Positions 2,895-50,835 of a stretch of DNA of 52,605 nt are shown here, in pieces. Both the position numbers and the translations under genes were made by a program. How positions within the stretch are numbered: the stretch's first letter is position 1; each line of letters opens with the position of its first letter. The notes beneath the pieces are model-generated. The model saw nothing but the letters and a program-made list of their open reading frames with translations, was not told where the DNA came from and ran no database searches. This stretch comes from Bacteroidaceae bacterium (GTDB lineage Bacteria; Bacteroidota; Bacteroidia; Bacteroidales; Bacteroidaceae). The DNA is taken from positions 1 to 52,605 of the forward strand of contig JAFTEV010000101.1 in the NCBI GenBank assembly GCA_017453465.1. Reading direction: 5' to 3'.

Positions 2895-2902
2895 TATATT
2901 TG
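2895..2902 (+). promoter_or_regulatory. -7 box of the dockerin-like gene
   Basis: TATATTTG with TTTG about 20 bp upstream (near 2869). The predicted start near 2909 excludes the TTG at 2900 as a translation start and supports the ATG at 2921. Confidence 0.75.
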
Positions 2903-2920
2903 CAACAAAAATCCAAAAGA

Positions 2921-3673
2921 ATGAATACAATCAAACACATGCTGCTGCTTGCAGCACCCCTGCTGCCCATGTCCATGAGCGCACAAGCCATTAACGGCGA
3001 CCTGAATCACAATGGCGATTTGGATGTGGAAGACATCACCTTGCTCATTAATGGTTATTTGACAGGTGAGAAAGAGTATTTTAATGGTGACAGTGACAAA
3101 GTCCACGAAGCCGTTGACCTCGGTCTCTCCGTGAAATGGGCAACCATGAACATCGGTGCAAACGCTCCCGAAGAATATGGCGACCACTTTGCCTGGGGCG
3201 AGACCACAGCAAAGACAGACTACAGCTTGGGCACCTACAAATGGACTCAAGGCGACAGTAGGACATTGACCAAGTACAATACCTCATCCAATTACAGCGA
3301 CACAACTCCCGACAACAAAACTCAGCTTGAGCTTGCTGACGATGCAGCCCAGGCTAACTGGGGCGGCGCGTGGCGTATGCCGACCTATGAAGAGATGACA
3401 GAACTTCGCGAAAAGTGTAAATGGACTTGGACAACCGTGAACGGTGTGAACGGAATGAATGTGACAGGACCTTCAGGCAATTCTATATTCATGCCTGCAG
3501 CTGGGTATCGCAGCGACACAAGGCTCTTCGATGCAAACAGCTGCTGCAACTATTGGTCAAGTTCTCTTAATGAGTCCAAACCAACCCGCGCTTGGAGCTT
3601 CTATTCGAACTACGGGAGTTTGGAAGATTTTCATCGTGAACAAGGGCGAAGTGTTCGCGCCGTTTGCCCGTAG
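2921..3673 (+). CDS. Secreted protein with dockerin-like repeat and Fibrobacter major paralogous-type domain
   Basis: A 250-aa exported protein starting at ATG 2921, after the promoter. The signal peptide covers residues 1-22 (ends SMSAQA). One dockerin-like calcium-loop half-repeat follows (NGDLNHNGDLDVEDITLLING, about residues 24-44). The rest, from VDLGLSVKWATMNIGA to WSFYSNYG...RSVRAVCP, resembles the Fibrobacter succinogenes major paralogous domain/DUF1566 group: a W-rich WGGAWRMPTYEEM segment and a C-terminal R-x-V-C-P end. Related Bacteroidales proteins are extracellular and of unknown function. It is monocistronic. The single half-dockerin is unlikely to be a full cohesin-binding module. 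Confidence 0.75.
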   Translation: MNTIKHMLLLAAPLLPMSMSAQAINGDLNHNGDLDVEDITLLINGYLTGEKEYFNGDSDKVHEAVDLGLSVKWATMNIGANAPEEYGDHFAWGETTAKTDYSLGTYKWTQGDSRTLTKYNTSSNYSDTTPDNKTQLELADDAAQANWGGAWRMPTYEEMTELREKCKWTWTTVNGVNGMNVTGPSGNSIFMPAAGYRSDTRLFDANSCCNYWSSSLNESKPTRAWSFYSNYGSLEDFHREQGRSVRAVCP

Positions 3674-3754
3674 TTCACGAACCTTTTAGCTTGGCGTTAG
3701 CCATATTTAGTACAACTGTAGCACAACATGGCTTCGTTGCAGTAGCAATGCTGT

Positions 3755-3810
3755 GCCAGCCCCCCACAAAGTTCTCCCGCTGCAATGGGTGAACTTTGTG
3801 GGGGGCTGGC
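3755..3810. repeat. 20-bp perfect inverted repeat (strong hairpin) with array-like flank
   Basis: Arms 3755-3774 and 3791-3810 are perfectly complementary over 20 bp (GCCAGCCCCCCACAAAGTTC and its reverse complement), with a 16-nt loop. It could terminate transcription of the gene ending at 3673. The sequence just before it (3718-3750) holds two degenerate units (CTGTAG and TTGCAG cores 21 bp apart) resembling the 22-bp arrays at 12164, 37647 and 49377. The AAAGTTCTC stretch recurs beside those arrays. Confidence 0.85.
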
Positions 3811-11319: not shown

Positions 11320-12117
11320 ATGAGAACACGCATCCTTTTGCTCCTGCTGCTCACCTTCCTGCCAATCCTGTCCAGCGCGAAGGACAAGAAGAAAAAAGAG
11401 AAGGTGACTGAAGTCTATGGCCTGGTGTCCCCAGACCCCATGCCCCAACGTCCACGCCCCGAACATCACAACAAGCCCCTGGACCAGCCGCTAATGATTT
11501 ACGACGACGGCAAGGGCACGTGCGGCTTCGACATGAGCCACTATCAGGGACGTGTGGATTGGGATGCGCTGGCTACCGACCCCAATGCCGGCTTCGTCTA
11601 TCTGAAGGCCAGCGAGGGTTCCAGCCTGAAGGACAACATGTATGCCACCTACTACAGCGAGGCACGCCGCGTGGGACTCAAGGTAGGCAGCTATCACTTC
11701 TTCCGTCCCAACTGCACTGCACGCGAGCAGTTTGAGAACTTCCGCAGCGTGCTCCGTGGCCGTCACCAAGACCTCATCCCCATCATCGACGTGGAGGTGC
11801 AGAGCAAGGGTGTCTCCATGTACCTCTTCCAGGAACGCTTGGCCGAACTGCTCCAACTGGTGGAGCGTGAAGTGGGCCGCAAGCCCATGATTTACACGGG
11901 CCAGAAATTCTACAACCGCCACTTCTCCAACAGCCGTTTCCGTGGCAACTATCCCTTCATGATTGCCTGCTACAGCTTCGAGGAACCCGTGCTCTACAAC
12001 AACGACGACTTCCTCATTTGGCAATTCACCGGCTACGGCAAAGCCAAGGGCGTGCGAGGCCACATCGACATCAGCCGCTTTGTGCGAGGCCACAAACTTC
12101 GCGAAATTATGTTCTGA
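11320..12117 (+). CDS. GH25 family lysozyme (exported)
   Basis: A 265-aa glycoside hydrolase family 25 muramidase, expected to cut peptidoglycan between N-acetylmuramic acid and N-acetylglucosamine. A signal peptide covers residues 1-20, followed by a Lys-rich linker. The catalytic domain runs from CGFDMSHYQGRVDWDAL (D71) through KASEG (E99) to the DxE pair in PIIDVEV (D157, E159), and ends WQFTGYGKAKGVRGHIDISRF. It is monocistronic. Bacteroidales GH25 enzymes are thought to act on the organism's own wall or on competitors; nothing here decides between these. Confidence 0.93.
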   Translation: MRTRILLLLLLTFLPILSSAKDKKKKEKVTEVYGLVSPDPMPQRPRPEHHNKPLDQPLMIYDDGKGTCGFDMSHYQGRVDWDALATDPNAGFVYLKASEGSSLKDNMYATYYSEARRVGLKVGSYHFFRPNCTAREQFENFRSVLRGRHQDLIPIIDVEVQSKGVSMYLFQERLAELLQLVEREVGRKPMIYTGQKFYNRHFSNSRFRGNYPFMIACYSFEEPVLYNNDDFLIWQFTGYGKAKGVRGHIDISRFVRGHKLREIMF

Positions 12118-12163
12118 CCGCCGCACAGTTCTCCCACTATTTTCACACTTCATTCCCATCACA

Positions 12164-12273
12164 GCCACACTGCAGTGCCGTCGTTCCGAGACTGTAGTGT
12201 GGCTGTTCTGGGACTGTAGTGCCACTCTTCTGGGACTGTAGTGCCACTCTTCTGGGACTGCAGTGCCACAGCA
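12164..12273. repeat. Five-unit 22-bp palindromic array
   Basis: Five consecutive 22-bp units, each with a TGCA or TGTA dyad centre at 12171, 12193, 12215, 12237 and 12259. Units three and four are identical. The core is GGGACTGTAGTGCCAC, an imperfect palindrome. The array fills the gap between two convergent genes and is related in sequence to 37647-37844 and 49377-49543. Confidence 0.92.
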
Positions 12274-12285
12274 GTGGCAAAACTA

Positions 12286-12320
12286 TCCCCCGACAGTGAG
12301 AGAACTTTGCTGCCGGGGGA
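12286..12320. terminator. GC hairpin between convergent genes
   Basis: TCCCCCG (12286-12292) and CGGGGGA (12314-12320) form a stem. The loop contains GAGAGAACTTTGCTG, a stretch also seen near the arrays at 3755 and 49377. No U-run is present on either side, so terminator function is uncertain. Confidence 0.45.
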
Positions 12321-12325
12321 GGGAT

Positions 12326-14185
12326 TCAAGCTGTCTGCAGTGACTGAATGTACTCAATCAGTTTTTTGTAAAAAGGGGAATGGGCGAGCGTGGCTTGGTT
12401 GCCCAGGATGATAAGTTTCATGCGGGCACGGGTCATAGCCACGTTCATGCGGCGCAGGTCGCCAAGGAAACCTATTTGCCCTTGCTCGTTGCTGCGCACA
12501 AGGGAAATGATGATGATGTCGCGCTCCTGCCCCTGAAAACCATCCACTGTGTTGACGGTGATGGCCTTGCGGAGTTGCTTCAGGCTGGGGTCGGCCTTGA
12601 TGAGGGAGCGGATGTACTGGGTCTGGACGCGGTAGGGGCTGATGATGCCGATGTCGAGCCGCTCGTCGAGGAAGCGGTGAAGGCCGATTTTCTCAATGTA
12701 TGCCTTCAGCGTAGTGATGAGCAGCTGGGCTTCTTCCTTATTGATGCGTCCGTGGTTTTCGCCGATAAATTCTTCCTGGAAGTCGTTGTCAACCCAAGTG
12801 ATGGGCGTGTCGTAGTCCAGGACACCACGGTGCTGCACGCTGGGGTCGCTCTTGAGCCGTCCGCCGTAGAACCAGTCGCTGGAGAACTGCATGATGGCGT
12901 CGTTCATGCGGTACTGCACTTGCAGCAGACTGACGGCCTTGGGCTGATTCTCCACAATGCGCTCCATCAGTGTCTTGCCCAGTCCGCCGCGCAGGGCTTC
13001 GTAGCACTTGATGGTGGGGGGCAACTGCTGGTGGTCGCCCGCCAGAACAACGCGGCTGGCCCGGCGTATGGCAATCCAGCAGGCAGGCTCCAGTGCCTGG
13101 GCTGCTTCGTCAATGAACAGGGTGGAGTAGTGTTGTCCCACCAGTATCTTGTTGGCACTGCCCACGAGGGTACAACTGATGACGCGAGCCTCGTTGAAGA
13201 GGTCTTCGCGGATGCGCATTTCTATCTCGGTGGCACGTTCCCGCAGTCGGGCAATCTTCTGGTGGGTGCTGTCGCCGCCTTTGTGACTTTCGCGCAACTG
13301 GCGGATGGTGTTGCGAATGGCCCACAACTGGGTATATTCGGGGTGCGACTCAAAGCGGCGCTCGTAGGTGAAGGACAGCATCTTGTCGTTCACACGAGTG
13401 GGGTTGCCAATGCGCAAGACGGGCACACCGTGGTCAACGAGCCGCTCGCTGATCCAATCCACAGCCATGTTGCTCTGTGCGCACACCAGCACCTGGGTTT
13501 CACGGCGCAGGGTTTCGTAGATGGCTTCTACCAGCGTGGTGGTTTTGCCTGTGCCCGGAGGCCCATGCACAATCTGCACGTCCTTGGCTCGCAGCACTTC
13601 GTTGACGGCATCCTGCTGTGTGGCGTTGAGCCACGGAAAAGCCATCGGTGCTAATGCACGCTTTGCCGCCGGCTGCTGTCCGCTGAAGATGTCGCGCAGG
13701 TCTGCCAGACGGTTTTTCTGGGCTTTCATCACGGTGTCGAGGGCGTGGAACATGGTGCGGAAGCTGGTCTCGTCGAAGTAGAGCTGCACACCCAGGTCGG
13801 GGGCATTCTGCAGGTCGATGACTGCCTGTGTGCTGGGCAGCGTGCAGACCATGCGGTCGCCATCGACAAAGCTGATGGTCGAAGTGAAAGGATAGTAGGA
13901 AGCCTCCCTTTGTGCCGTTCTGAAAAACTGCACAGGCCGTCCGTACTCAAACAGCGTGTCGATGTCGCTGTCTTCCTCATAGTCCTTGGTGATTTCCACC
14001 ACCAGCTGGTTCAGCGAGTTGTAGTAGCTGCGCCCCACAGTGACGGGATACCAGCAGATGCCACGCCGCAGTTTGCGCTGAATGCCCATCCGTTCCGACT
14101 GGATGCGAAATTCTTCCTTCTCCGCTTCGTATTCCATCGTGAGCAGCTGGTGGAGCTTCTGTATGTAGAGTGTGGATGACTGCAA
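12326..14185 (-). CDS. Superfamily 1 DNA/RNA helicase (UPF1/SMUBP2-like)
   Basis: A protein of up to 619 aa of the UPF1-like SF1B helicases (AAA_11/AAA_12). Motif I is GPPGTGKTTT (208-217), Ia is VLVCAQSNMAVD, II is FIDEAAQALE (DEAA box), III is GDHQQLPPT. The second RecA-like domain contains QYRMNDAIM, VNTVDGFQGQERDIIIIS and RMNVAMTRARM. An OB-like region of about 130 residues precedes motif I. Such enzymes unwind RNA or DNA; the role in Bacteroidales is not established. The first possible codon is TTG 14185. The first ATG in frame is 14137 and could be the true start. It follows the TPR gene by about 35 bp. Confidence 0.9.
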   Translation of the reverse strand: MQSSTLYIQKLHQLLTMEYEAEKEEFRIQSERMGIQRKLRRGICWYPVTVGRSYYNSLNQLVVEITKDYEEDSDIDTLFEYGRPVQFFRTAQREASYYPFTSTISFVDGDRMVCTLPSTQAVIDLQNAPDLGVQLYFDETSFRTMFHALDTVMKAQKNRLADLRDIFSGQQPAAKRALAPMAFPWLNATQQDAVNEVLRAKDVQIVHGPPGTGKTTTLVEAIYETLRRETQVLVCAQSNMAVDWISERLVDHGVPVLRIGNPTRVNDKMLSFTYERRFESHPEYTQLWAIRNTIRQLRESHKGGDSTHQKIARLRERATEIEMRIREDLFNEARVISCTLVGSANKILVGQHYSTLFIDEAAQALEPACWIAIRRASRVVLAGDHQQLPPTIKCYEALRGGLGKTLMERIVENQPKAVSLLQVQYRMNDAIMQFSSDWFYGGRLKSDPSVQHRGVLDYDTPITWVDNDFQEEFIGENHGRINKEEAQLLITTLKAYIEKIGLHRFLDERLDIGIISPYRVQTQYIRSLIKADPSLKQLRKAITVNTVDGFQGQERDIIIISLVRSNEQGQIGFLGDLRRMNVAMTRARMKLIILGNQATLAHSPFYKKLIEYIQSLQTA

Positions 14186-17320: not shown

Positions 17321-17422
17321 AAGTTAAAAGTTAAAAGTTAAAAGTTAAAAGTTAAAATGCCATGCGGAGTGTCAGTGTACTGCGCCAGCCCATTTTAACT
17401 TTTAACTTTTAACTTTTAACTT
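17321..17422. repeat. Inverted arrays of the heptamer GTTAAAA
   Basis: The left arm, 17321-17358, consists of five GTTAAAA units. The right arm, 17392-17422, is the exact reverse complement of 17328-17358 over 31 bp. The 33-nt loop is GC-rich. It lies between pgk and the downstream lipoprotein gene in the same transcript direction and would form a very long hairpin in mRNA. Confidence 0.95.
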
Positions 17423-19428: not shown

Positions 19429-19523
19429 AAAGTTGACGCAACGGCGTTGTTTTTGAAAACATCGCCGTTGTTTCTGAAAACAACGCTCGTTGTTTTTACA
19501 AACAACGCCGTTGCGTCAACTTT
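19429..19523. repeat. 21/22-bp palindromic array with 24-bp terminal inverted repeat
   Basis: AAAGTTGACGCAACGGCG... (19429-19452) is perfectly repeated in reverse at 19500-19523. Between them, units with the core CGTTGTTTnTGAAAACAACG, each a near-palindrome, start at 19446, 19467, 19489 and 19510, that is, with 21-22 bp spacing. The sequence is unrelated to the GC-rich arrays, but the geometry is the same. Confidence 0.9.
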
Positions 19524-29058: not shown

Positions 29059-29059
29059 G

Positions 29060-29165
29060 GAATTAGGAATTAGGAATGTGGAATTAGGAATGTGGAATTA
29101 GGAATGGCTACTGTGTGTTTTTCAGTATCAATTCCTCATTCCTAATTCCTCATTCCTAATTGATT
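29060..29165. repeat. Inverted tandem array of GGAATTAGGAATGTG
   Basis: The left arm 29060-29105 contains repeated AATTAGGAAT words with about 15-bp spacing. The right arm 29131-29165 contains the reverse complement (ATTCCTAATTCCTCATTCCT). The loop is about 25 nt. It fills the gap just upstream of the GH97 start and resembles in design the elements at 17321-17422 and 30486-30597. Confidence 0.9.
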
Positions 29166-30485: not shown

Positions 30486-30597
30486 AATTAACAATTAACA
30501 ATTAAACAATTCACGATTAACAATTCACAATTTGAGTATGGACAAGCAAGCCACAGATACTCAATTGTGAATTGTGAATTGATTAATTGGTAATTAG
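30486..30597. repeat. Inverted array of AATTAACAATTCAC-type words
   Basis: The left side (30486-30540) repeats AATTAACAATTAACAATT and ends ACAATTCACAATTTGAGTAT. The right side (30557-30597) reads ATACTCAATTGTGAATTGT and continues with AATTGATTAATT, giving a near-perfect hairpin of about 20 bp with further matches. It lies just after the stop of the ccsBA-like gene and may act as a terminator for that operon. Confidence 0.85.
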
Positions 30598-36125: not shown

Positions 36126-37439
36126 TTAGAGGAACCATCCGGCGTAGGCCACACCGATGTTGACGGAAGGTTCATTGTTGTACTTGCTCTTGAGGAATCG
36201 CTGCGAGTATTCGGCCTTGACGCAGACCTGCGGCAGTGGGTAGTAGTTGAGGCCGACAGCCATGCGCTTCACGTCGGTATAGTCGTAAGAGGCGTTGAGC
36301 ACCTTTTCGGCGTAGGGATTGTACTGCTCGTAGCGGCCAAAGACATAGAGCTTCTGTTTGCTGTTGCGCGTCTTGTGAATCTGCGAGAACACATCGTAGC
36401 CGGCCTCGATGCCTATGGCGTATGCCTTGCTGCTCACGATGCGTGTGCTGTGGTGGTAGGGCGACTGCTTGTTGATGCGGTTGTACATGCTGTTCAGCTG
36501 CTCTGCATCGCCCAGGTGTCCGTAGTCGGCCTGTCCGCGCACAATCCAGTTGTGGTCGTTGTATGTGAAGTCAAAGGAGCCTATAAACACTGCGCCCTTG
36601 TTGGTGGCCGTGATGCCCGAAGCCTCGCGTGGGGCGGAGTTGCCGATGCTGTGACCATAGTAGGCACTAAGTCCCAATCGCAGACCGGGCACACTGAAGT
36701 TATCTACGCGCACGGCTGTGCCAAACTTGTTAGCTATTTCGTATTCCAGCGGCGAGGCTGCACCCTTGTGAATCCAGCCCACGTTGGTAAACTGGTCGGC
36801 ATTGAGTCCGCCCAGCAGCTGGGCTTCGTAACGCCACTGACCTGCACGGCCCCAGAAGCTGATGCCCGTCTGGTGCCACGTGGAGGGCAAAATGTTGTTC
36901 TCGCCCTCAGGACGATATACGGTAAAGAAATTAAGGGGTTCGTGGTGCGCGTTGTTCAGTCCCACGGGCACGACGATGTGGCCCACGCGCAGGTTGGCAA
37001 AGGGTGCGAATGACTTCTGAATCCAGAACTGCTCTATTTCCACTTCGCCGCCTTTCTCTGTTTCCTGTTCCCATTCGCCAAACTCATCGTACTCCAGTTC
37101 GTAGGCCGTACCTGTGCCGCCGTGTTCAAACTCAATCTCGCTGCCCATTGTCCAGCCCTTGCCGAAGTCGTAGCCGATGTTGATGACAACATGAGGAATG
37201 TCGAAGCGGCCATGACTGGGGTCGTTCTTGTGTTCGTCTGCATTGACGTAACGCTTGGAGTTGTCGCTGTAGAAGTTGCGGCTCAGTGCCACCTCACCAT
37301 AACCTCCGAGCGAGAGTCGCGAGAGTGCTTTTGTCAGTTTCGACACTTTCTCTGTTTCCGTGTTTTGCGCTGTGGCTGTGAGTGTGCACACAGTAGCGGC
37401 CAGGACCGCAGTGCCTTTTAATACCTTGTTCAATTTCAT
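36126..37439 (-). CDS. Outer-membrane porin-like beta-barrel protein
   Basis: A 437-aa exported protein starting at ATG 37439 (MKLNKVLKGTAVLAA); the open frame extends upstream only into the promoter and repeats. Signal peptide 1-24 (ends TATAQ). The rest has alternating hydrophobic residues typical of a barrel: LGGYGEVALSRNFY at the start, NLRVGHIVVPVGLNNAHHEPLNF, and a terminal strand ending AYAGWFL. It resembles phosphate-selective porin O/P-like proteins of Bacteroidales. It is the first gene of the imelysin/cytochrome operon and may let the iron or redox substrate into the periplasm (inferred). Confidence 0.85.
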   Translation of the reverse strand: MKLNKVLKGTAVLAATVCTLTATAQNTETEKVSKLTKALSRLSLGGYGEVALSRNFYSDNSKRYVNADEHKNDPSHGRFDIPHVVINIGYDFGKGWTMGSEIEFEHGGTGTAYELEYDEFGEWEQETEKGGEVEIEQFWIQKSFAPFANLRVGHIVVPVGLNNAHHEPLNFFTVYRPEGENNILPSTWHQTGISFWGRAGQWRYEAQLLGGLNADQFTNVGWIHKGAASPLEYEIANKFGTAVRVDNFSVPGLRLGLSAYYGHSIGNSAPREASGITATNKGAVFIGSFDFTYNDHNWIVRGQADYGHLGDAEQLNSMYNRINKQSPYHHSTRIVSSKAYAIGIEAGYDVFSQIHKTRNSKQKLYVFGRYEQYNPYAEKVLNASYDYTDVKRMAVGLNYYPLPQVCVKAEYSQRFLKSKYNNEPSVNIGVAYAGWFL

Positions 37440-37490: not shown

Positions 37491-37646
37491 AGTTTTCGAC
37501 TGCAAAATTACTGCCAAATCAACACAGCCGCAATACTCTATTTGCGTTATTGCAGACCCCGCCATTGAGTATTTGGCTGGGGGGCGATACTCACTTTTTG
37601 TGCCCGATACCCACTCCGACGGGCGTGATACCCAATTTTGGGTACA

Positions 37647-37844
37647 GTGGCACTGCACTCCCGTTGCCGTGGCACTGCACTCCCACTTTCGTCCCACTGC
37701 ACTCCCACTGCCGTGGCAATGCAGTGCCGCCGCAGTCCCACTGTAGTGTGCCAGAAGTCCCACTGCATTGTGCCAGAAGTCCCACTGCATTGTGACGGAA
37801 GTCCCATTGTGTTGTGACGGGAATCACACCGCAGTGGGAGAGAA
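37647..37844. repeat. Nine-unit 22-bp palindromic array
   Basis: Nine consecutive units of exactly 22 bp start at 37647 and then every 22 bp to 37823. Each has a near-palindromic core such as GTGGCACTGCACTCCC or GTGGCAATGCAGTGCC, with the dyad TGCA (or TGTA, TGTG, CGCA) at offset 7. Units six and seven differ at one or two bases. The array occupies the divergent gap between the porin operon and the sensor kinase gene, ending 38 bp upstream of the kinase promoter box. Confidence 0.95.
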
Positions 37845-37882
37845 ATTTCAGTGCAGTGTTGGTAGATATGGACTGAATTTTG

Positions 37883-37890
37883 TATCTTTG
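37883..37890 (+). promoter_or_regulatory. -7 box of the sensor kinase operon
   Basis: TATCTTTG, 29 bp before the ATG at 37920. Confidence 0.75.
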
Positions 37891-37919
37891 CACGCAGTTT
37901 TCAAACACAACCCACACAG

Positions 37920-40900
37920 ATGTCCCGTCTCTACAACACCATCATGCTCTTGCTATGCCTCCTCATGGGGGGGCTGCTGACGCTGTGCACCACCGAGGGC
38001 GAGAGCCGCCTGGAGGAGGCCCAGCTCGACAGTGCGCGCACGGCCATGCTTCAGCGCATGGACTACGGCAAGGCTGAGGACATCTACCGCCAGTTGCGTG
38101 GCAAGACGCGCAACAAGCTCACCCGTCTGCGTGCCGATGAGGGGCTGATGAAGTTGTGTCAAATCTGTTCGCGCAGTAAGGAGTTCTACGACTACCGCTC
38201 GGATGCGGAGCGGCTCATGGCCGAACTGCGCACGGCGGAGCAGCACATGGACGCACGGAACGACTCGATTTGGCTGGCAGCCCAGCAGGAGTTCAGAGAG
38301 GTGTCGGCGGTGTACTACTACAACCTGCGCGACTTCGACCGCGCACGCGAGATTCTGGGCATTCCCCGCGAGCAGATGATGGGGCTGAAACCCTTCATGG
38401 CCCAATACATCGGGGCCGGCACCTACTATTACCGCTCGATGCAGAAGAAGTGGGCTGCCGACGCGCTCACAGACCAGGGCCGCTACGACGAGGCTCTGGA
38501 CTCGCTGGCTGCGGCTCTCTACCTCGTCAACGAACATCACCGGAAGTACAGTTTCACGGGACTGGCTGACACATTATATATATATAATAGCGCCCCCGAC
38601 ACAATCTCCACCGAAATGCGCTGGATTCAAACCCCAGGGCTGATGTGTGTGCCGGAGTGGATGGCCTCGGTGCGCGACCAGCTGAGCATCACCCTCGGCG
38701 CAATGGGACGCAAGGCGGAGTCGGACTATAACCATAACATCTACTTCGACATCCTCGATGCCACCCGTCAGGATATGCTCATGGAGCAGCAGCTGGATGC
38801 ACTGGAACGGCACGAGCAGTTCTTCCACATCCTGCTGGTAATCATTGCTGCCTTTGCCCTGCTACTGGTGTCGCTCGCAGTCAGCCTGTATCGACGACGC
38901 ACGCGAACCGCTCAGCAACGGGTGGCACAACTGCGCAGCGACATCGAGCACGAATTGCAGGCCCTGCCAGCGCGGTGGCTGGAGCAGAGCGGAACCACTG
39001 TTGGCGAGATTGAAGACCAGATGGAGTATGCCGACGATGAACGCCGCGCCGCCGAAATGGAGATTGAGCAGAACAAGCGAGGCTATGTGGACAAGGCTAC
39101 AAGCGTGGCCATCGCCAACGGCATTGTGCCCTTCCTGGACCGCGCCTTGCACGTGGCCGACAGGTCGTTTGACCGCGACTACCTGCTGGAACTGATTGAC
39201 AAGATAAATGACTACAACGAGGTGCTGGGACACTGGGTCAAGATTCGTCAGGGAAGCGTGTCGCTCAGCATCGAGAGTTTTTCGCTGGAAGACCTCTTTG
39301 CGGTGGTCAGGAAAGCCACACGCCTATATGAAAGCAGCGGTTTAACTTTGTCTGTGCAACAGACTGATTCCGTAGTGAAAGCAGACAAGGCTCTCACGCT
39401 CTTCATGATTAACACGCTGATGGACAACGCACGGAAGTTCACGCCGCAGGGAGGCCGTGTCAGCGTGGCGGCAACGGAGACGGAAGACTACGTGGAAGTA
39501 TCGGTAGAGGACACGGGCTATGGCATGACGGAGCAGGACACACGTGAGGTGGTGACGGCAAAGAAGGGCCACGGTTTCGGACTGATGAACTGCCGTGGCA
39601 TCATTGAGAAGTACAAGAAGACCAACCGACTCTTCAGCGTGTGCACATTCGGTGTAGAGAGCCAACTGAACAAGGGGAGCCGCTTCTACTTCCGACTGCC
39701 CAAGGGACTGAAACGGACTCTCATGCTGATTGCCGTGCTGACACTCTCTTGCAGGGGCTATGCCTTCCAGCCCGAAGACCCCAATCTGACCAAGGCACGG
39801 ATGTATGCCGACAGCGTGTTCTATGCCAACACGCAGGGGCAGTATGGGCGCGCCATCGACTACGGAGACTCTGTGCTCACGGCCCTGAACTATTTCTACA
39901 TGGAGCAGACTGGACGCACCGACCACTTGCTGCTCATCGAGGGCGAAAGCAGCGATATGCCGGAGGTCAGGCTGTGGCAAGAGCGGTTCGACACAGACTA
40001 TGGCATCATCGTGGATGTGCGCAACGAAATGGCCATTGCAGCCCTTTCGCTCAACCGCAAGCACCTGTATCGCTACAACAGTGATGTGTTCACACGGATG
40101 TATCAATTGCTTTCGCAGGACGAAAGCCTCTCTGAGCGCATTGCCCGGCTGGAGCGTACCAACGCCAACAAGGGGCTGGTGGTCAACATGAGCGTGTTGC
40201 TGCTGCTGCTGTTTGTGCCGCTGCTCTTCATGTACTACTATCACAAACACCTGCTGCCCCTGTTCAACCTGCGGCAGGTAAAGGGGCTGATGGAGACACT
40301 GTTCACTACGCCACGCGAACAGTTCATGCCCACCCTGCAAAGAGGCGTTAACGACCTGGTGCCAGTGGATGATGTCTGCCTGGGAATCTATGACAAAGAC
40401 CAGCGCGGACTACTTTTCCACCACGCCCGCCACAATGCCGACGAGAGCCTGCAGCAGTTCATGAACTACGCCTATTTGGACGGCAAGGAGATTAAAGACC
40501 AGAAACTGGGCGTGGCAGCCTTTCCGCTCAGCGCGAGGGTGGGGGACGACGTGCAGACGGTGGGTGTGATGGGACTCAAACTGCACTCCAACCGCCTGAC
40601 GAACACAGAGGCAGAACTGATGGAGTGGGTTGCCCAAAGTGTGGCACAGTATGTGTACAGCACCGACACCCGCATCGAAGAACTCCAGCACGACTTGGAA
40701 CTGCGGCAAGACGAGGTTCGGCGTGCCGATGCGGAACTGAGCCGCATCCATGTGCAAAACATGATTCTCGACAATTGCTTGAGCACCATCAAGCACGAGA
40801 CCATGTATTACCCCAATCGCATCAAAGACCTCCTGCTCCGCAACCTCACTGCCGAGGACAACTCGGCCCAGCAAGAGGTATCGGAGCTTATACATTATTA

Positions 40901-41486
40901 TAAAGAAGTGTTCACTGTGCTCAGCCAGTGTGCCATGAAGCAGCTGGAGCGCACCGTGTTCCGCCGCCGCCAGATTCCTGTGCGCCAGCTGACGGACTAC
41001 GCCGCAGAGCGGGCCCGCCACTACCAGGAACGCCAGTTCACTGGGCTGCGCTTCGCAGCAGACAGCCCGGAAAAACCGGGAAAACCGGATATTTCGGTCA
41101 TTCCGGAAAGCCCGCCGCCTCCCGCCCAGCCCACCATCCTGGGCGACCCCGTAATGTTGCAATACATGCTCGACACACTGCTGCAAGCCGCCTACAGCGT
41201 TAAAGAATGTGGAGAATTGAAGCTGGATTTTGCCGTTTCCGAGCAATTCTGTACCTTTGCACTGACTGACAGCCGCCGCCACTGGACTGCGGACGAAATG
41301 CGCACCCTCTTCTATGCCGACACACTGCGCTACGACTCGCAGGAGGACCGTCTCATCGGCTCGGAATACTTGCTCTGCAAACAAATCATACGCGAGCACG
41401 ACGAGCACTGCGGCATTCGCGGCTGCCGCATTTATGCCACTGACGGCAACACCGTAGTGTTTACTTTACCAATGAAAACTAAATAG
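37920..41486 (+). CDS. Double sensor histidine kinase (DUF5112/DUF5113-type architecture)
   Basis: An 1188-aa protein with two sensor-kinase units in one chain. Unit 1: signal/TM 5-25, periplasmic helical TPR-like domain to about 295, TM about 300-325, coiled coil, a dimerisation region without phosphoacceptor His (VAIANGIVPFLDRA), and an intact HATPase with N-box NTLMDNARKFTPQGG (about 495-510), EDTGYGM and GHGFGLMNC. Unit 2: signal-like TM near 602, second sensor region, TM near 755, GAF-like domain about 804-905, His box STIKHETMYYP near 955, and a degenerate HATPase that has lost the Asn and the DxGxG residues. The response regulator follows 6 bp later. Confidence 0.8.
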   Translation: MSRLYNTIMLLLCLLMGGLLTLCTTEGESRLEEAQLDSARTAMLQRMDYGKAEDIYRQLRGKTRNKLTRLRADEGLMKLCQICSRSKEFYDYRSDAERLMAELRTAEQHMDARNDSIWLAAQQEFREVSAVYYYNLRDFDRAREILGIPREQMMGLKPFMAQYIGAGTYYYRSMQKKWAADALTDQGRYDEALDSLAAALYLVNEHHRKYSFTGLADTLYIYNSAPDTISTEMRWIQTPGLMCVPEWMASVRDQLSITLGAMGRKAESDYNHNIYFDILDATRQDMLMEQQLDALERHEQFFHILLVIIAAFALLLVSLAVSLYRRRTRTAQQRVAQLRSDIEHELQALPARWLEQSGTTVGEIEDQMEYADDERRAAEMEIEQNKRGYVDKATSVAIANGIVPFLDRALHVADRSFDRDYLLELIDKINDYNEVLGHWVKIRQGSVSLSIESFSLEDLFAVVRKATRLYESSGLTLSVQQTDSVVKADKALTLFMINTLMDNARKFTPQGGRVSVAATETEDYVEVSVEDTGYGMTEQDTREVVTAKKGHGFGLMNCRGIIEKYKKTNRLFSVCTFGVESQLNKGSRFYFRLPKGLKRTLMLIAVLTLSCRGYAFQPEDPNLTKARMYADSVFYANTQGQYGRAIDYGDSVLTALNYFYMEQTGRTDHLLLIEGESSDMPEVRLWQERFDTDYGIIVDVRNEMAIAALSLNRKHLYRYNSDVFTRMYQLLSQDESLSERIARLERTNANKGLVVNMSVLLLLLFVPLLFMYYYHKHLLPLFNLRQVKGLMETLFTTPREQFMPTLQRGVNDLVPVDDVCLGIYDKDQRGLLFHHARHNADESLQQFMNYAYLDGKEIKDQKLGVAAFPLSARVGDDVQTVGVMGLKLHSNRLTNTEAELMEWVAQSVAQYVYSTDTRIEELQHDLELRQDEVRRADAELSRIHVQNMILDNCLSTIKHETMYYPNRIKDLLLRNLTAEDNSAQQEVSELIHYYKEVFTVLSQCAMKQLERTVFRRRQIPVRQLTDYAAERARHYQERQFTGLRFAADSPEKPGKPDISVIPESPPPPAQPTILGDPVMLQYMLDTLLQAAYSVKECGELKLDFAVSEQFCTFALTDSRRHWTADEMRTLFYADTLRYDSQEDRLIGSEYLLCKQIIREHDEHCGIRGCRIYATDGNTVVFTLPMKTK

Positions 41487-48260: not shown

Positions 48261-49352
48261 ATGATTCCATTTCTCGACCTTCAGGCCATCAACCATTCCT
48301 TTGGGCAGCCGCTCATTGATGCAGCCACTCAGACCATCCGCTCAGGCTGGTATCTGCATGGTAACGAGACTGCTGCATTCGAAGCAGAGTGGGGCGAATA
48401 CTGTGGGGCACCTTATGTCATTGGCGTTGGCAATGGATTGGATGCCCTGCGACTCACGTTGCAAGCCTGGAAGATTATGTTAAATTGGGAGGATGGCGAC
48501 GAAGTCATAGTTCCCGCAAACACCTTCATCGCCACGCCATTAGCCGTTTCGCAAGTAGGGCTGAAGCCTGTCTTCTGTGAAGTAAACTTCAGTAACGCGC
48601 TCATCCGCACAGATTCGTCCTATCTGAAGACACTGCTGACACCGCGCACCCGCTGCATCATTCCTGTTCACTTATACGGACAACTGGCCAATCTGACTGA
48701 AATCTACCGCTTTGCGCAACGCCATCTGCTGCAAGTGCTGGAGGATGCTTGTCAGGCCCACGGTGCACGCTCTATATATAATAATAATGTACGCACGTGC
48801 GCGTACAGTTTTTATCCAGGCAAGAATCTGGGTGCACTGGGCGACGGCGGCTGTGTGACGACCCACGACGGAGAGCTTGCCGCGCTGGTGCGCAACCTTG
48901 CCAACTATGGGCAGACTGAGAAATACATCCACGACTACAAAGGCATCAATTCGCGCCTGGACGAACTTCAGGCAGCCATCCTCCGTGTGAAACTGCGTCG
49001 GCTCGACGCTGACAATCGGCGCAGACAGCAGATAGCCCAATTCTACGCAGAACAATTTGCCGCCGAACAGCCAGCTGCTGTGCAGGACGGAACCCATGTT
49101 TACCACGTTTATCCGTATCTGGCAAAAGACCGCACACGGTTGCAGCAGCATCTGCAAACCTGCGGAGTCCAGACGCAGATACATTATCCCGTGCCGTGTC
49201 ACCAACAGAAAGCCTACGCCGACGCGGAGTCCGTTTCATTGCCAGCGGTTGAATATTGGTGCAGCCACGAATTGTCCTTGCCAATCTCACCAGTCCTGAC
49301 CGACGAGCAAGCCGAACACGTGGTCAAATCTGTGCAGTCCTTTCAAATTTGA
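48261..49352 (+). CDS. DegT/DnrJ/EryC1/StrS family sugar aminotransferase
   Basis: A 363-aa PLP-dependent aminotransferase acting on nucleotide-linked keto sugars for LPS or other glycans. IPFLDLQ at the N-terminus, GVGNGLDALRLTLQAW (phosphate binding), VPANTFIATPLAVSQVGLKPVFCEV, VLEDACQAHGA (Asp to pyridine N) and SFYPGKNLGALGDGG (Schiff-base Lys near 190) are present. The overall pattern resembles the FdtB/QdtB type, which makes 3-amino sugars, but the exact substrate is not decided. No other sugar-nucleotide genes are adjacent. Confidence 0.92.
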   Translation: MIPFLDLQAINHSFGQPLIDAATQTIRSGWYLHGNETAAFEAEWGEYCGAPYVIGVGNGLDALRLTLQAWKIMLNWEDGDEVIVPANTFIATPLAVSQVGLKPVFCEVNFSNALIRTDSSYLKTLLTPRTRCIIPVHLYGQLANLTEIYRFAQRHLLQVLEDACQAHGARSIYNNNVRTCAYSFYPGKNLGALGDGGCVTTHDGELAALVRNLANYGQTEKYIHDYKGINSRLDELQAAILRVKLRRLDADNRRRQQIAQFYAEQFAAEQPAAVQDGTHVYHVYPYLAKDRTRLQQHLQTCGVQTQIHYPVPCHQQKAYADAESVSLPAVEYWCSHELSLPISPVLTDEQAEHVVKSVQSFQI

Positions 49353-49376
49353 ATGGAGATTATGTTAAATCGAGAA

Positions 49377-49543
49377 TGCAGTGCCACAGCTGTGGGAGAA
49401 CTTTCCTACCTGCGTGGCACTGCATTCTCTTTTCTGTGGCAATGCAGTGGGACTTCAGTGGCAATGCACTCCCGCTGCGGTAGCAATGCAGTTTCACTGC
49501 GGTGGCAATGCAGTGCTACTGCAACGAGACTGCATTGCTACTG
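49377..49543. repeat. 22-bp palindromic array (seven recognisable units)
   Basis: TGCA dyads occur at 49377, 49421, 49443, 49465, 49487, 49509 and 49531. All are spaced by 22 bp, except the first gap of 44, where the middle unit has decayed to GAGAACTTTCC. The core is GTGGCAATGCAGTG. A small palindrome CGAGAAAGTTCTCTCG follows at 49571-49586. The array lies between the aminotransferase gene and the promoter at 49652, and belongs to the same sequence family as 37647-37844 and 12164-12273. Confidence 0.94.
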
Positions 49544-49651
49544 AAGTCCCACAGTTTTCCCGTTTGGCCGAGAAAGTTCTCTCGCTGCAACAACAAACCT
49601 ATGTGGTAAAAGTTTTTTCGCACTTCAAATGAGTATTTCAGTTTTTTTCCG

Positions 49652-49659
49652 TAACTTTG
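49652..49659 (+). promoter_or_regulatory. -7 box of the Rid-like gene
   Basis: TAACTTTG. Transcription should start near 49666, only a few bases before the ATG at 49669, so the mRNA may be almost leaderless. Confidence 0.7.
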
Positions 49660-49668
49660 CAGCCGTTT

Positions 49669-50835
49669 ATGGAATATCGGAGATTATATAATGAGGAGAC
49701 CGGAGCTCAGCTTCAGTTTTCTGTCTTTAGGCCAACAGACGGATTGGCAGAGTATCATGCCATGATACAGATTGAGCCTCGTGGCGACAACTTCCAAGCC
49801 CAACTGGAGCGGATTCAGTTGGCCGAGGCAACCTTGATGGGACAACCCGAACTGAGGGGTGCAGTCCCAGTGTTTATGCGCTACTTTCTTTCCGATTCCA
49901 CAAACCAGCAGACCCTCGTCAAGAACAAATTGCAAGCGGACGGCCAGCCGCATTGCACGATTTCGTTCATCCAGCAATCTCCGCTCAACGGTTCGAAGAT
50001 TGCCCTCTGGGTGTACCTTGTAGGCGCAGAGGCAGAGGTCAGGAACGAGGCTGACGACCTGCATTCCACGCTGATGATTCATAACGGATACCAACACGTG
50101 TGGACCATGGGCTTGTCGAGCAACGAGGGAACTTCGGGCGAACAAACAACGACACTGCTGAATCGCTATGAGCAGCTGCTGGCTGACTACGGCGGCACAT
50201 TGGCCGAAAACTGCATCCGCACGTGGTTCTTTGTGCGCGATGTCGATACACAATACCACGGGCTGGTCGTTGCACGCCGCGAAAACTTTGCGCAGCAAGG
50301 GCTGACCGCTCAGACCCACTACATTGCCTCGACAGGCATAGGCGGTAATCCTGCCGACCCAAAGGCTATTATTCAGCTGGGCTGCTATGCCCTACTCGGT
50401 TTTCAGCCAGCGCAGCAACGCTATCTGTACGCTCCCACCCACCTGAACCGAACTTACGAATACGGCGTGACCTTTGAACGCGGCACGCTGATGGAGTATG
50501 GCGACCGTGGACACATCTACATTTCGGGCACGGCTTCTATCAACAACAAGGGCGAAGTGATGCACGTGGGCGACGTAGCATTGCAGACGCGCCGAATGTG
50601 GGAGAACGTGGAGCAGTTGCTGGCCGAAGGCGGGATGACTTACGACAATGTGATGCAAATCATCGTGTATTTGCGCGACATAGCAGACTATCAACTGGTT
50701 GACCGTATGTTTAAAGAACGTTTTCCGCAGATTCCCCGTGTCATTACGCTGGCTCCCGTGTGCCGCCCGACATGGCTCATCGAGATGGAGTGCATAGCCG
50801 TAGATGCTCGGCAGACCGATTTCCCGCGCTTCTGA
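49669..50835 (+). CDS. Rid/YjgF-fold protein related to the chorismatase (FkbO/Hyg5) group
   Basis: A 388-aa cytosolic protein. The C-terminal half (about 255-388) has the YjgF/Rid fold: ISGTASINNKGEVMHVGDVALQTRRMWENVEQLLAEGGMTYDNVMQIIVYLRDIADYQLV and a terminal EMECIAV strand. The N-terminal half (about 15-220) looks like a divergent second copy ending in NCIRTWFFVRDVDTQYHGLV. Two-domain proteins of this kind include chorismate-hydrolysing enzymes of secondary metabolism; the substrate here is unknown. I start at ATG 49669 because the earlier TTG is inside the promoter. It is monocistronic. Confidence 0.75.
   Translation: MEYRRLYNEETGAQLQFSVFRPTDGLAEYHAMIQIEPRGDNFQAQLERIQLAEATLMGQPELRGAVPVFMRYFLSDSTNQQTLVKNKLQADGQPHCTISFIQQSPLNGSKIALWVYLVGAEAEVRNEADDLHSTLMIHNGYQHVWTMGLSSNEGTSGEQTTTLLNRYEQLLADYGGTLAENCIRTWFFVRDVDTQYHGLVVARRENFAQQGLTAQTHYIASTGIGGNPADPKAIIQLGCYALLGFQPAQQRYLYAPTHLNRTYEYGVTFERGTLMEYGDRGHIYISGTASINNKGEVMHVGDVALQTRRMWENVEQLLAEGGMTYDNVMQIIVYLRDIADYQLVDRMFKERFPQIPRVITLAPVCRPTWLIEMECIAVDARQTDFPRF

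Follow-up and report, generated by a model that had tools for sequence, protein, structure and literature searches.

Intergenic arrays of 22-bp units in a Bacteroidaceae genome bin and its sister species

An intergenic gap in the window (the whole stretch of 52,605 nucleotides analysed here) holds a row of short units that keep a length of exactly 22 bp while their letters change. What kind of element do these units form, and what holds their spacing? The window is contig C81 of G000, a 3.16-Mb genome bin that is 85% complete, and we compare it with G004, a sister species represented by the rumen bin RUG14757.

The arrays of the window and the design of their units

The initial annotation described nine contiguous 22-bp units starting at position 37647, and this array (A2 in Table 1) is borne out. 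The two kin arrays to which it pointed share the A2 unit: A1, noted as five units at 12164-12273, and A3, noted at 49377-49543 and found here at 49370-49545. Degenerate units had also been placed at 3718-3750. Two such units are present (3742 and 3763), but they are weak and lie out of register. A long hairpin (CCAGCCCCCCACAAAGTTC / GAACTTTGTGGGGGGCTGG) is found near tRNA-His, at window positions 3756-3809.

Table 1. Repeat arrays of the window and the genes that flank them.
Feature	Position	Strand	Description
Two degenerate units	3742..3784	.	21 bp apart, out of register; adjoin hairpin with AAAGTTC/GAACTTT
Gene left of A1	11320..12117	+	glycosyl hydrolase family 25, Pfam PF01183
Array A1	12120..12317, core 12164-12273	.	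9 register slots; convergent genes either side; starts 2 bp past stop codon
Gene right of A1	12326..14185	-	helicase-like (AAA_11/AAA_12)
Gene left of A2	36126..37439	-	without Pfam match
Array A2	37647..37866	.	nine 22-bp units and one weak slot; divergent gene pair
Gene right of A2	37920..41486	+	sensor-kinase-like (HATPase_c, DUF5112/DUF5113)
Gene left of A3	48261..49352	+	DegT/DnrJ aminotransferase
Array A3	49370..49589	.	10 register slots; centres TGCA and AGTT/AACT
Gene right of A3	49657..50835	+	L-PSP endoribonuclease-like

Lag 22 gives the highest self-identity in all three window arrays (0.73, 0.72 and 0.57). Allowing up to two mismatches, 84 of 89 pairs of the core 10-mer CACTGCAGTG within 120 bp of each other sit at multiples of 11 bp. 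The 21-mer CACTGCAGTG-N-CACTGCAGTG, with up to three mismatches, has 25 matches per strand in G000 when duplicated contigs are counted, and its reversed control has none. CRISPR arrays consist of near-identical repeats separated by spacers of at least 20 bp; the units here abut, with 6 bp between arms and 4 bp between units, which upholds the earlier exclusion of CRISPR.

The units had been read as near-palindromes centred on TGCA. TGCA centres do occur, but most centres form no full palindrome, with CTGCAT/ATGCAG and GAACTN/NAGTTC dominating, and unit positions 7 and 12 are complementary in 19 of 108 units, rarer than the 37 expected from shuffles. From 153 distinct units we derived a weight matrix that reads GYGGSA-n-[TGCA, AACT or AGTT]-n-TSCCRC-nGCn, with A6 and T13 at 89%. 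Units of G004 have a plainer grammar. Most start either with GTGGCA, which precedes CTGCAT, ATGCAG or AAGTTC, or with GTGGGA, which precedes GAACTT; TGCCAC or TCCCAC comes next, and four bases close the unit. The stretch AGAACTTT or its complement AAAGTTCT, taken earlier for an element boundary, sits within units in the TGCA register, as GGGA-GAACTT/G or AAGTTC-TCCC. It is thus an alternative unit centre and no edge.

A2 lies upstream of TATCTTTG, a promoter-like motif of the right-hand gene. A longer ORF call of the left-hand gene reaches 37790 and overlaps the array. Strong protein-level similarity of this gene to G004 stops at about 37367-37439 and DNA similarity at about 37610; the overlapping call is probably a false long ORF.

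Spacing, order and placement across two genomes

Using R1, a 66-position sequence model of the arrays, we find at least 44 separate array places in G000 (duplicated contigs removed) and at least 45 in G004. Three contig pairs of the G000 bin (C81/C106, C12/C92 and C4/C85) match at 99.99-100% identity over the parts compared, which is what a merged assembly would give; the compared duplicates are identical or one base apart. The predicted sharing of the 22-bp phase by many arrays holds genome-wide and in relatives. Instead of isolated low-complexity sequence, we find a family of dozens of places with a period that is conserved elsewhere.

Neighbouring strong units lie at multiples of 11 bp in 291 of 292 pairs and at multiples of 22 bp in 272, a regularity that is partly pre-selected because the loci were chosen with the 66-bp model or by an A2 DNA match, both of which already hold the 22-bp spacing. 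In G000 (42 loci, 329,967 bases), 205 strong units give 155 pairs, of which 141 are spaced at multiples of 22, 13 at odd multiples of 11 and 1 otherwise. In 28 loci among the at least 45 places of G004, 166 strong units give 137 pairs (131, 6 and 0, respectively). The reversed matrix yields 4 matches in G000 and 1 in G004, against 205 and 166. That spacing is kept while letters drift, as had been proposed, is also seen in 59 internal degenerate units that sit in exact register, a comparison in which the arrays were cut in register, which by itself makes their total length differences multiples of 22. Over 36 pairs, nine copies of F1, a MITE-like repeat of G000 and G004, have 147 gap openings and 1404 substitutions, or 0.105 openings per substitution.

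A second flavour, TTACCA-n6-TGGTAA, was searched with a single 18-mer, free of spacing pre-selection. This flavour has 20 matches in G000, 46 in G004 and 0-3 in each of the other 43 genus genomes, similar to what the reversed control gives. The 42 spacings between neighbours no more than 100 bp apart are all multiples of 22, as are 51 of the 52 spacings measured around the matches in 18 arrays.

The arrays are also polar. We classed 522 units from 72 arrays, with 150 units left in no class. Of 37 informative arrays, 35 show a tendency for AGTT-type units to stand before AACT-type ones (p = 1e-8; 16 to 2 in G000, 19 to 0 in G004). Counted by unit pairs, AGTT comes before AACT 125 times and after it 12 times, where 2000 shuffles of unit order have a mean of 68.6, a standard deviation of 7.9 and a maximum of 94. 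CTGCAT/C likewise precedes ATGCAG/GTGCAG 46 to 10 (shuffle mean 28.1, maximum 43).

Whether arrays avoid coding sequence was a check proposed in the initial annotation, and they are mostly intergenic: 67 of the 72 arrays in G000 and G004 have no overlap with a gene call. By codon-usage gene calls, the gaps that hold the arrays are convergent in 19 cases, same-direction in 32 and divergent in 6, with 10 at a contig or locus end and 5 ORF overlaps (including A2) taken as called. Convergent gaps thus outnumber divergent gaps (p = 0.015), and arrays lie closer to 3' ends (median 78 bp) than to 5' ends (median 241 bp; p = 9e-5). Ordinary genes flank A1-A3. The 20 neighbours scanned at 12 other arrays are likewise ordinary, apart from three with no Pfam match. 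A Pfam scan of 27 array-neighbouring proteins, 4 of them without any Pfam match, detected no transposase family. A many-copy, secreted-looking protein family is encoded near several arrays (L016, L032, L038, L059, L065, L066, L068 and L082); its copy in the window (2900-3673) has an Lcl_C-like end.

Array history and distribution

A1 is absent in G004, and the matching flanks lie 35 bp apart there, compared with 217 bp in the window. At the empty site there is no clear target duplication, and a short hairpin of its own, AACTTCCC/GGGAAGTT, is present. In G004 the gap of A2 is occupied by a TTACCA-type 22-bp array instead, and the genes flanking A3 are about 58 kb apart. One G004 array, L072, joins flanks that adjoin two different G000 arrays (L018 and L034), as expected if arrays recombine. 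At one shared place (L016/L065), the first units are identical and later units differ by whole words. The initial annotation argued against recent copying. However, units can be locally alike inside arrays (the second half of A2, the middle of A1), and several arrays have the same leader and similar first units, which shows copying of arrays as blocks. No outer ends are common to all G000 and G004 arrays.

MITE-like F1 elements with a body of 156-175 bp adjoin some arrays (L070, L076, L061 and L066 in G004; L034, L037, L022, L050 and L020 in G000). They have inverted ends like AAAAAYCTGTCAT / ATGACAGRTTTTT, and in most copies the two ends agree, with T at both in G004 and C at both in G000, so that the change is matched between them. 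F3 elements beside arrays L065, L069, L059 and L064 contain 11-bp tandem repeats that differ per copy (GTGACTAAGCG, GTTCCACAGCG, GTGACAGGCCT and GTGCCTAAGCT); their non-repeat parts are conserved.

Within the genus, R1 matches 3 of 45 genomes at E <= 1e-5, namely G000, G004 and one weak match in G015, and array-rich genomes number 2 of 45. Weak R1 matches amount to 1-2 in G015 and 1 in G035. Near A1, DNA identity over seven genus genomes is highest with G004 (84%), followed by G015 (77%) and four others (71-74%), with a short match only in G035. In the order (393 genomes, 13 candidates scored per genome), R1 matched two genomes of another family, and a mixed model, R2, matched these and one more. 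Within that second family R2 matches 9 of 38 genomes, of which three have 1-3 matches, all weak.

With other letters, this second family of Bacteroidales has the same skeleton, GTGGnAAAnnTTTnCCAC-N4. G249 has the units TTGGCA-AAGTTT-TGCCAC-CGCC and GTnGTA-AACCTT-TACnAC-CCCG, G451 and G457 have units like GTGGAA-AAACTT-TTCCAC-AGAT, and G443 has GTGAAA-AAGCTT-TTTGAC-TCCT. Averaged over eight unit sets, A6 and T13 reach 0.99, T2 0.91 and A17 0.88, an agreement that is partly selected because the sets were found with models of the skeleton. The congeners G451 and G457 carry mostly 90-bp, three-unit elements, with three full units at each of 13 and 14 loci, respectively, a number that R2 itself fixes. 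End 9-mers like CTTTTTCCA and TGGAAAAAG (up to two mismatches each) stand 90 bp apart at 22 of these 27 loci (9/13 in G451, 13/14 in G457); other distances also occur, as the 9-mers match inside units too. At one orthologous place in G451 and G457, 108 bp of the element hold 32 substitutions and no gaps, and the flank holds 54 substitutions and 5 gaps. In the second family there is no convergent bias: 12 of 41 gaps are divergent and 10 convergent. A viral origin was considered and rejected: two exact-pattern scans of viral contigs returned 7 loci, each of one isolated unit.

Intergenic tandem arrays with a period of 16-30 bp number 34 in 615,991 bases from 23 genus genomes. The commonest period is 23 bp (15 arrays), followed by 22 bp (5), 21 bp (4) and 24 bp (1), with 9 arrays at 16-20 bp and none at 25-30 bp. 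The peak at 22-23 bp, 2 of 15 values, has p = 7e-10, or 1e-5 without G014, for a range set after seeing the data and a sample that was not random and partly seen before (parts of G014, G015 and G035 and one G064 array; five short G026 contigs of 19,936 bases were left out). Periods of 7 and 14 bp are commoner still, with 25 and 19 of 132 genus intergenic arrays. Several 23-bp units look palindrome-like with other sequence, as judged without a null. Arrays of two to three such units occur between genes in the congeners G014, G035, G010 and G064 (L126, L127, L136-L140, L256, L264), with letters that differ between genomes; a 60-kb sample of G014 holds seven.

What the arrays may be

We propose that the arrays are a non-autonomous intergenic repeat of 22-bp sites for a DNA-binding protein that reads two half-sites, one every 11 bp, a proposal that we judge evenly balanced between right and wrong. 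A predicted trans-acting protein, be it a transposase, a recombinase or an architectural protein, would bind neighbouring units together, and spacing would then matter more than letters. The protein or its element may spread arrays into new intergenic places, where they would do little harm. Unit number would then shift by recombination between units, and the flavours may be a record of protein and sites changing together. We favour a protein that reads sites because it fits the exact length despite free letters, the independence of the two halves, the polarity and the concerted flavours. It is supported by the 11/22-bp spacing, the skeleton of two families, polarity, amplification in two sister species, the presence or absence of A1, and placement. 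Several observations count against it: there is no transposase among the 27 neighbours and no Y1 transposase in G000; the empty A1 site lacks a clear target duplication and has its own hairpin; positions 5 and 14 change together between flavours, which structure would also predict; part of the spacing regularity is selected, as is the three-unit make-up of the second-family loci, picked with R2; and the convergent bias is absent in the second family.

The arrays could instead act as RNA, as multi-hairpin 3' ends or two-way terminators in which 22 bp would be two turns of an A-form stem. The arrays fold far better than letter shuffles (mean z -6.7 over the 68 of 72 arrays with at least five units), and the convergent excess and nearness to 3' ends in G000 and G004 would suit this reading, as would the hairpin that replaces A1 in G004 and the two terminator-like sites of the A1 region (12083-12103 on the + strand and 12286-12303 on the - strand; shuffle mean 0.4). 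However, A2 and A3 have no terminator-like sites, and in the second family divergent and convergent gaps are about equally frequent. Selection on hairpins of RNA or DNA, among the initial suggestions, is not supported within flavours. Pairing across centre and linker in eight unit sets is about the shuffle level or less (z -3.5 to 1.5), in sets that cover 7 G451 and 6 G457 loci (13 and 14 finally known), 6/7 for G443 and 13/17 for G249, other phases or flavours being excluded. Among 108 distinct G000 units scoring at least 9, positions 1-18 to 5-14 do not pair above shuffles, 8-11 do and 7-12 avoid pairing; positions 5-7 and 12-14 are coupled within each half-site. Folding is slightly better than that of unit-order shuffles (mean z -0.46, p = 0.02), but random unit flips fold as well as or better than the arrays (mean z +0.47), and exact mirror pairing of units is at the null level (55 vs 55.9). 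In a mixed alignment of three flavours, 84.7% of cells pair, compared with 81.5% when shuffled. Both-side changes between flavours number 39 against 19.5 in shuffles, nearly all at position 5/14 (C-G, T-A, G-C), a point in favour of RNA; counts of pairs and pair types are not above shuffles. Rfam 15 gave no match over the arrays of the window and 19 loci at gathering scores, nor at E up to 1 over window positions 37500-37950. Since the arms show no covariation within a flavour and unit order is not accounted for by folding, RNA structure is a poor reading, and we consider it quite improbable. The pattern within flavours, in which length is kept, letters drift, halves are independent and units are polar, argues against hairpins and for spacing.

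A plain minisatellite is possible but rather unlikely. Slippage and unequal recombination would make the arrays grow and shrink and gene conversion would spread them, with no bound protein or function, and exact length would be the footprint of recent duplication. The locally alike units of A1 and A2, the whole-word differences that follow identical first units in L016/L065 and the occupation of insertion-tolerant gaps all agree with this. Yet diverged units hold their exact length (the 59 degenerate slots, with 1 of 292 spacings out of register), the 22-bp skeleton recurs in the second family and orientation is polar. We find it very unlikely that the arrays are fused transposon ends, each with several 22-bp sites for a transposase, which another element of the genome would move. 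Tn7 has several 22-bp transposase sites at each end, left-half and right-half units here are opposite in sense, and leaders and recurring ends exist. On the other side stand the 27 scanned neighbours without a transposase family, the lack of outer ends common to the G000 and G004 arrays and the unclear target duplication at A1.

Known systems resemble the arrays in part. Plasmid iterons, such as those of R6K, are tandem protein sites about two helical turns apart. They share the two-turn tandem spacing with our arrays, but they are direct repeats at an origin, whereas the arrays are pseudo-palindromes at dozens of chromosomal places. ERIC/IRU-type repeats are discrete intergenic palindromes, as are the 90-bp-class elements of G451 and G457, which differ in being built of 22-bp modules with a shared skeleton. 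Porphyromonas gingivalis belongs to the same bacterial order as the array carriers. Its BrickBuilt MITE minisatellite, in the available part of its description, has 19 intergenic copies of 23-nt tandem units without spacers, with a leader and a tail, in one lineage; terminal repeats are IS5-like, such as GAGACCTTTGCA, and indels within arrays amount to 0-6% (PMC4596501). Intergenic copies, spacerless tandem units, leaders and restriction to a lineage are common to both, and the unit length differs (23 nt vs 22 bp), by a comparison of descriptions in which unit sequences were not aligned (PMC4596501). The BrickBuilt terminal repeat has no match in the window at up to one mismatch.

REP elements and BIMEs, which have RAYT transposases, are dispersed intergenic short palindromes in mosaic clusters of ordered orientation, as far as the available parts of the sources describe them (PMC2817692, PMC3733652). 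Against the same parts, the arrays are alike in being many-copy intergenic short palindromes that form mosaic clusters of ordered orientation, in having at least two flavours per genome and an uneven distribution between relatives, and in their convergent and same-direction gaps near 3' ends (19 + 32 of 72 in G000 and G004), a bias that the second family lacks (PMC2817692, PMC3733652). They differ as follows: of the tags GTAG and CGTC that mark one end of REP units, GTAG starts 51 of 353 strong units (98 with either end counted); units abut at 22 bp without variable spacers; and compensatory stem changes are absent within a flavour, with 5/14 changing on both sides between flavours (PMC2817692, PMC3733652). 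RAYT (Y1_Tnp) has no match in the 85%-complete G000 and two in G004, one of them strong. A link of RAYT with the arrays was discarded, as the two do not correlate and Y1_Tnp matches also occur in array-free genomes. The arrays work like a REP/BIME cluster, yet we do not file them as REP/BIME, because three tested marks fail: the tag (as GTAG), RAYT in G000 and stem compensation within flavours. In the open-licence literature, subscription journals being outside our scope, we found no description of a 22-bp family of this kind.

The usual explanation for dispersed palindromic repeats is a hairpin recognised by RAYT transposases, and the within-flavour pattern here argues otherwise. If a protein reads the units, they would form a natural series of binding sites in which one geometry has outlasted several changes of the letters, and carrier and non-carrier species would be open to direct comparison within a genus. 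A broader idea, which we hold to be unlikely, is that Bacteroidales share a chromosome-wide class of nucleoprotein arrays in which a predicted protein family sits on pseudo-palindromes that always lie two helical turns apart (22 or 23 bp), with lineage-specific letters. The pitch would be inherited while the code is rewritten, and the arrays would serve as marks at dozens of intergenic sites, either to organise the chromosome or to spread.

The window contains further tandem repeats. Repeats of 7 bp lie at 17321-17422, 29059-29161 and 30486-30532, the first two places holding inverted pairs (AAGTTAA/TTTTAAC and GGAATTA/AATTCCT). Two 21-bp tandem repeats with a palindromic part are found at 4-75 (TGATTCTTAAGAATCAAACAA) and 19439-19513 (CAACGCCGTTGTTTTTGAAAA).
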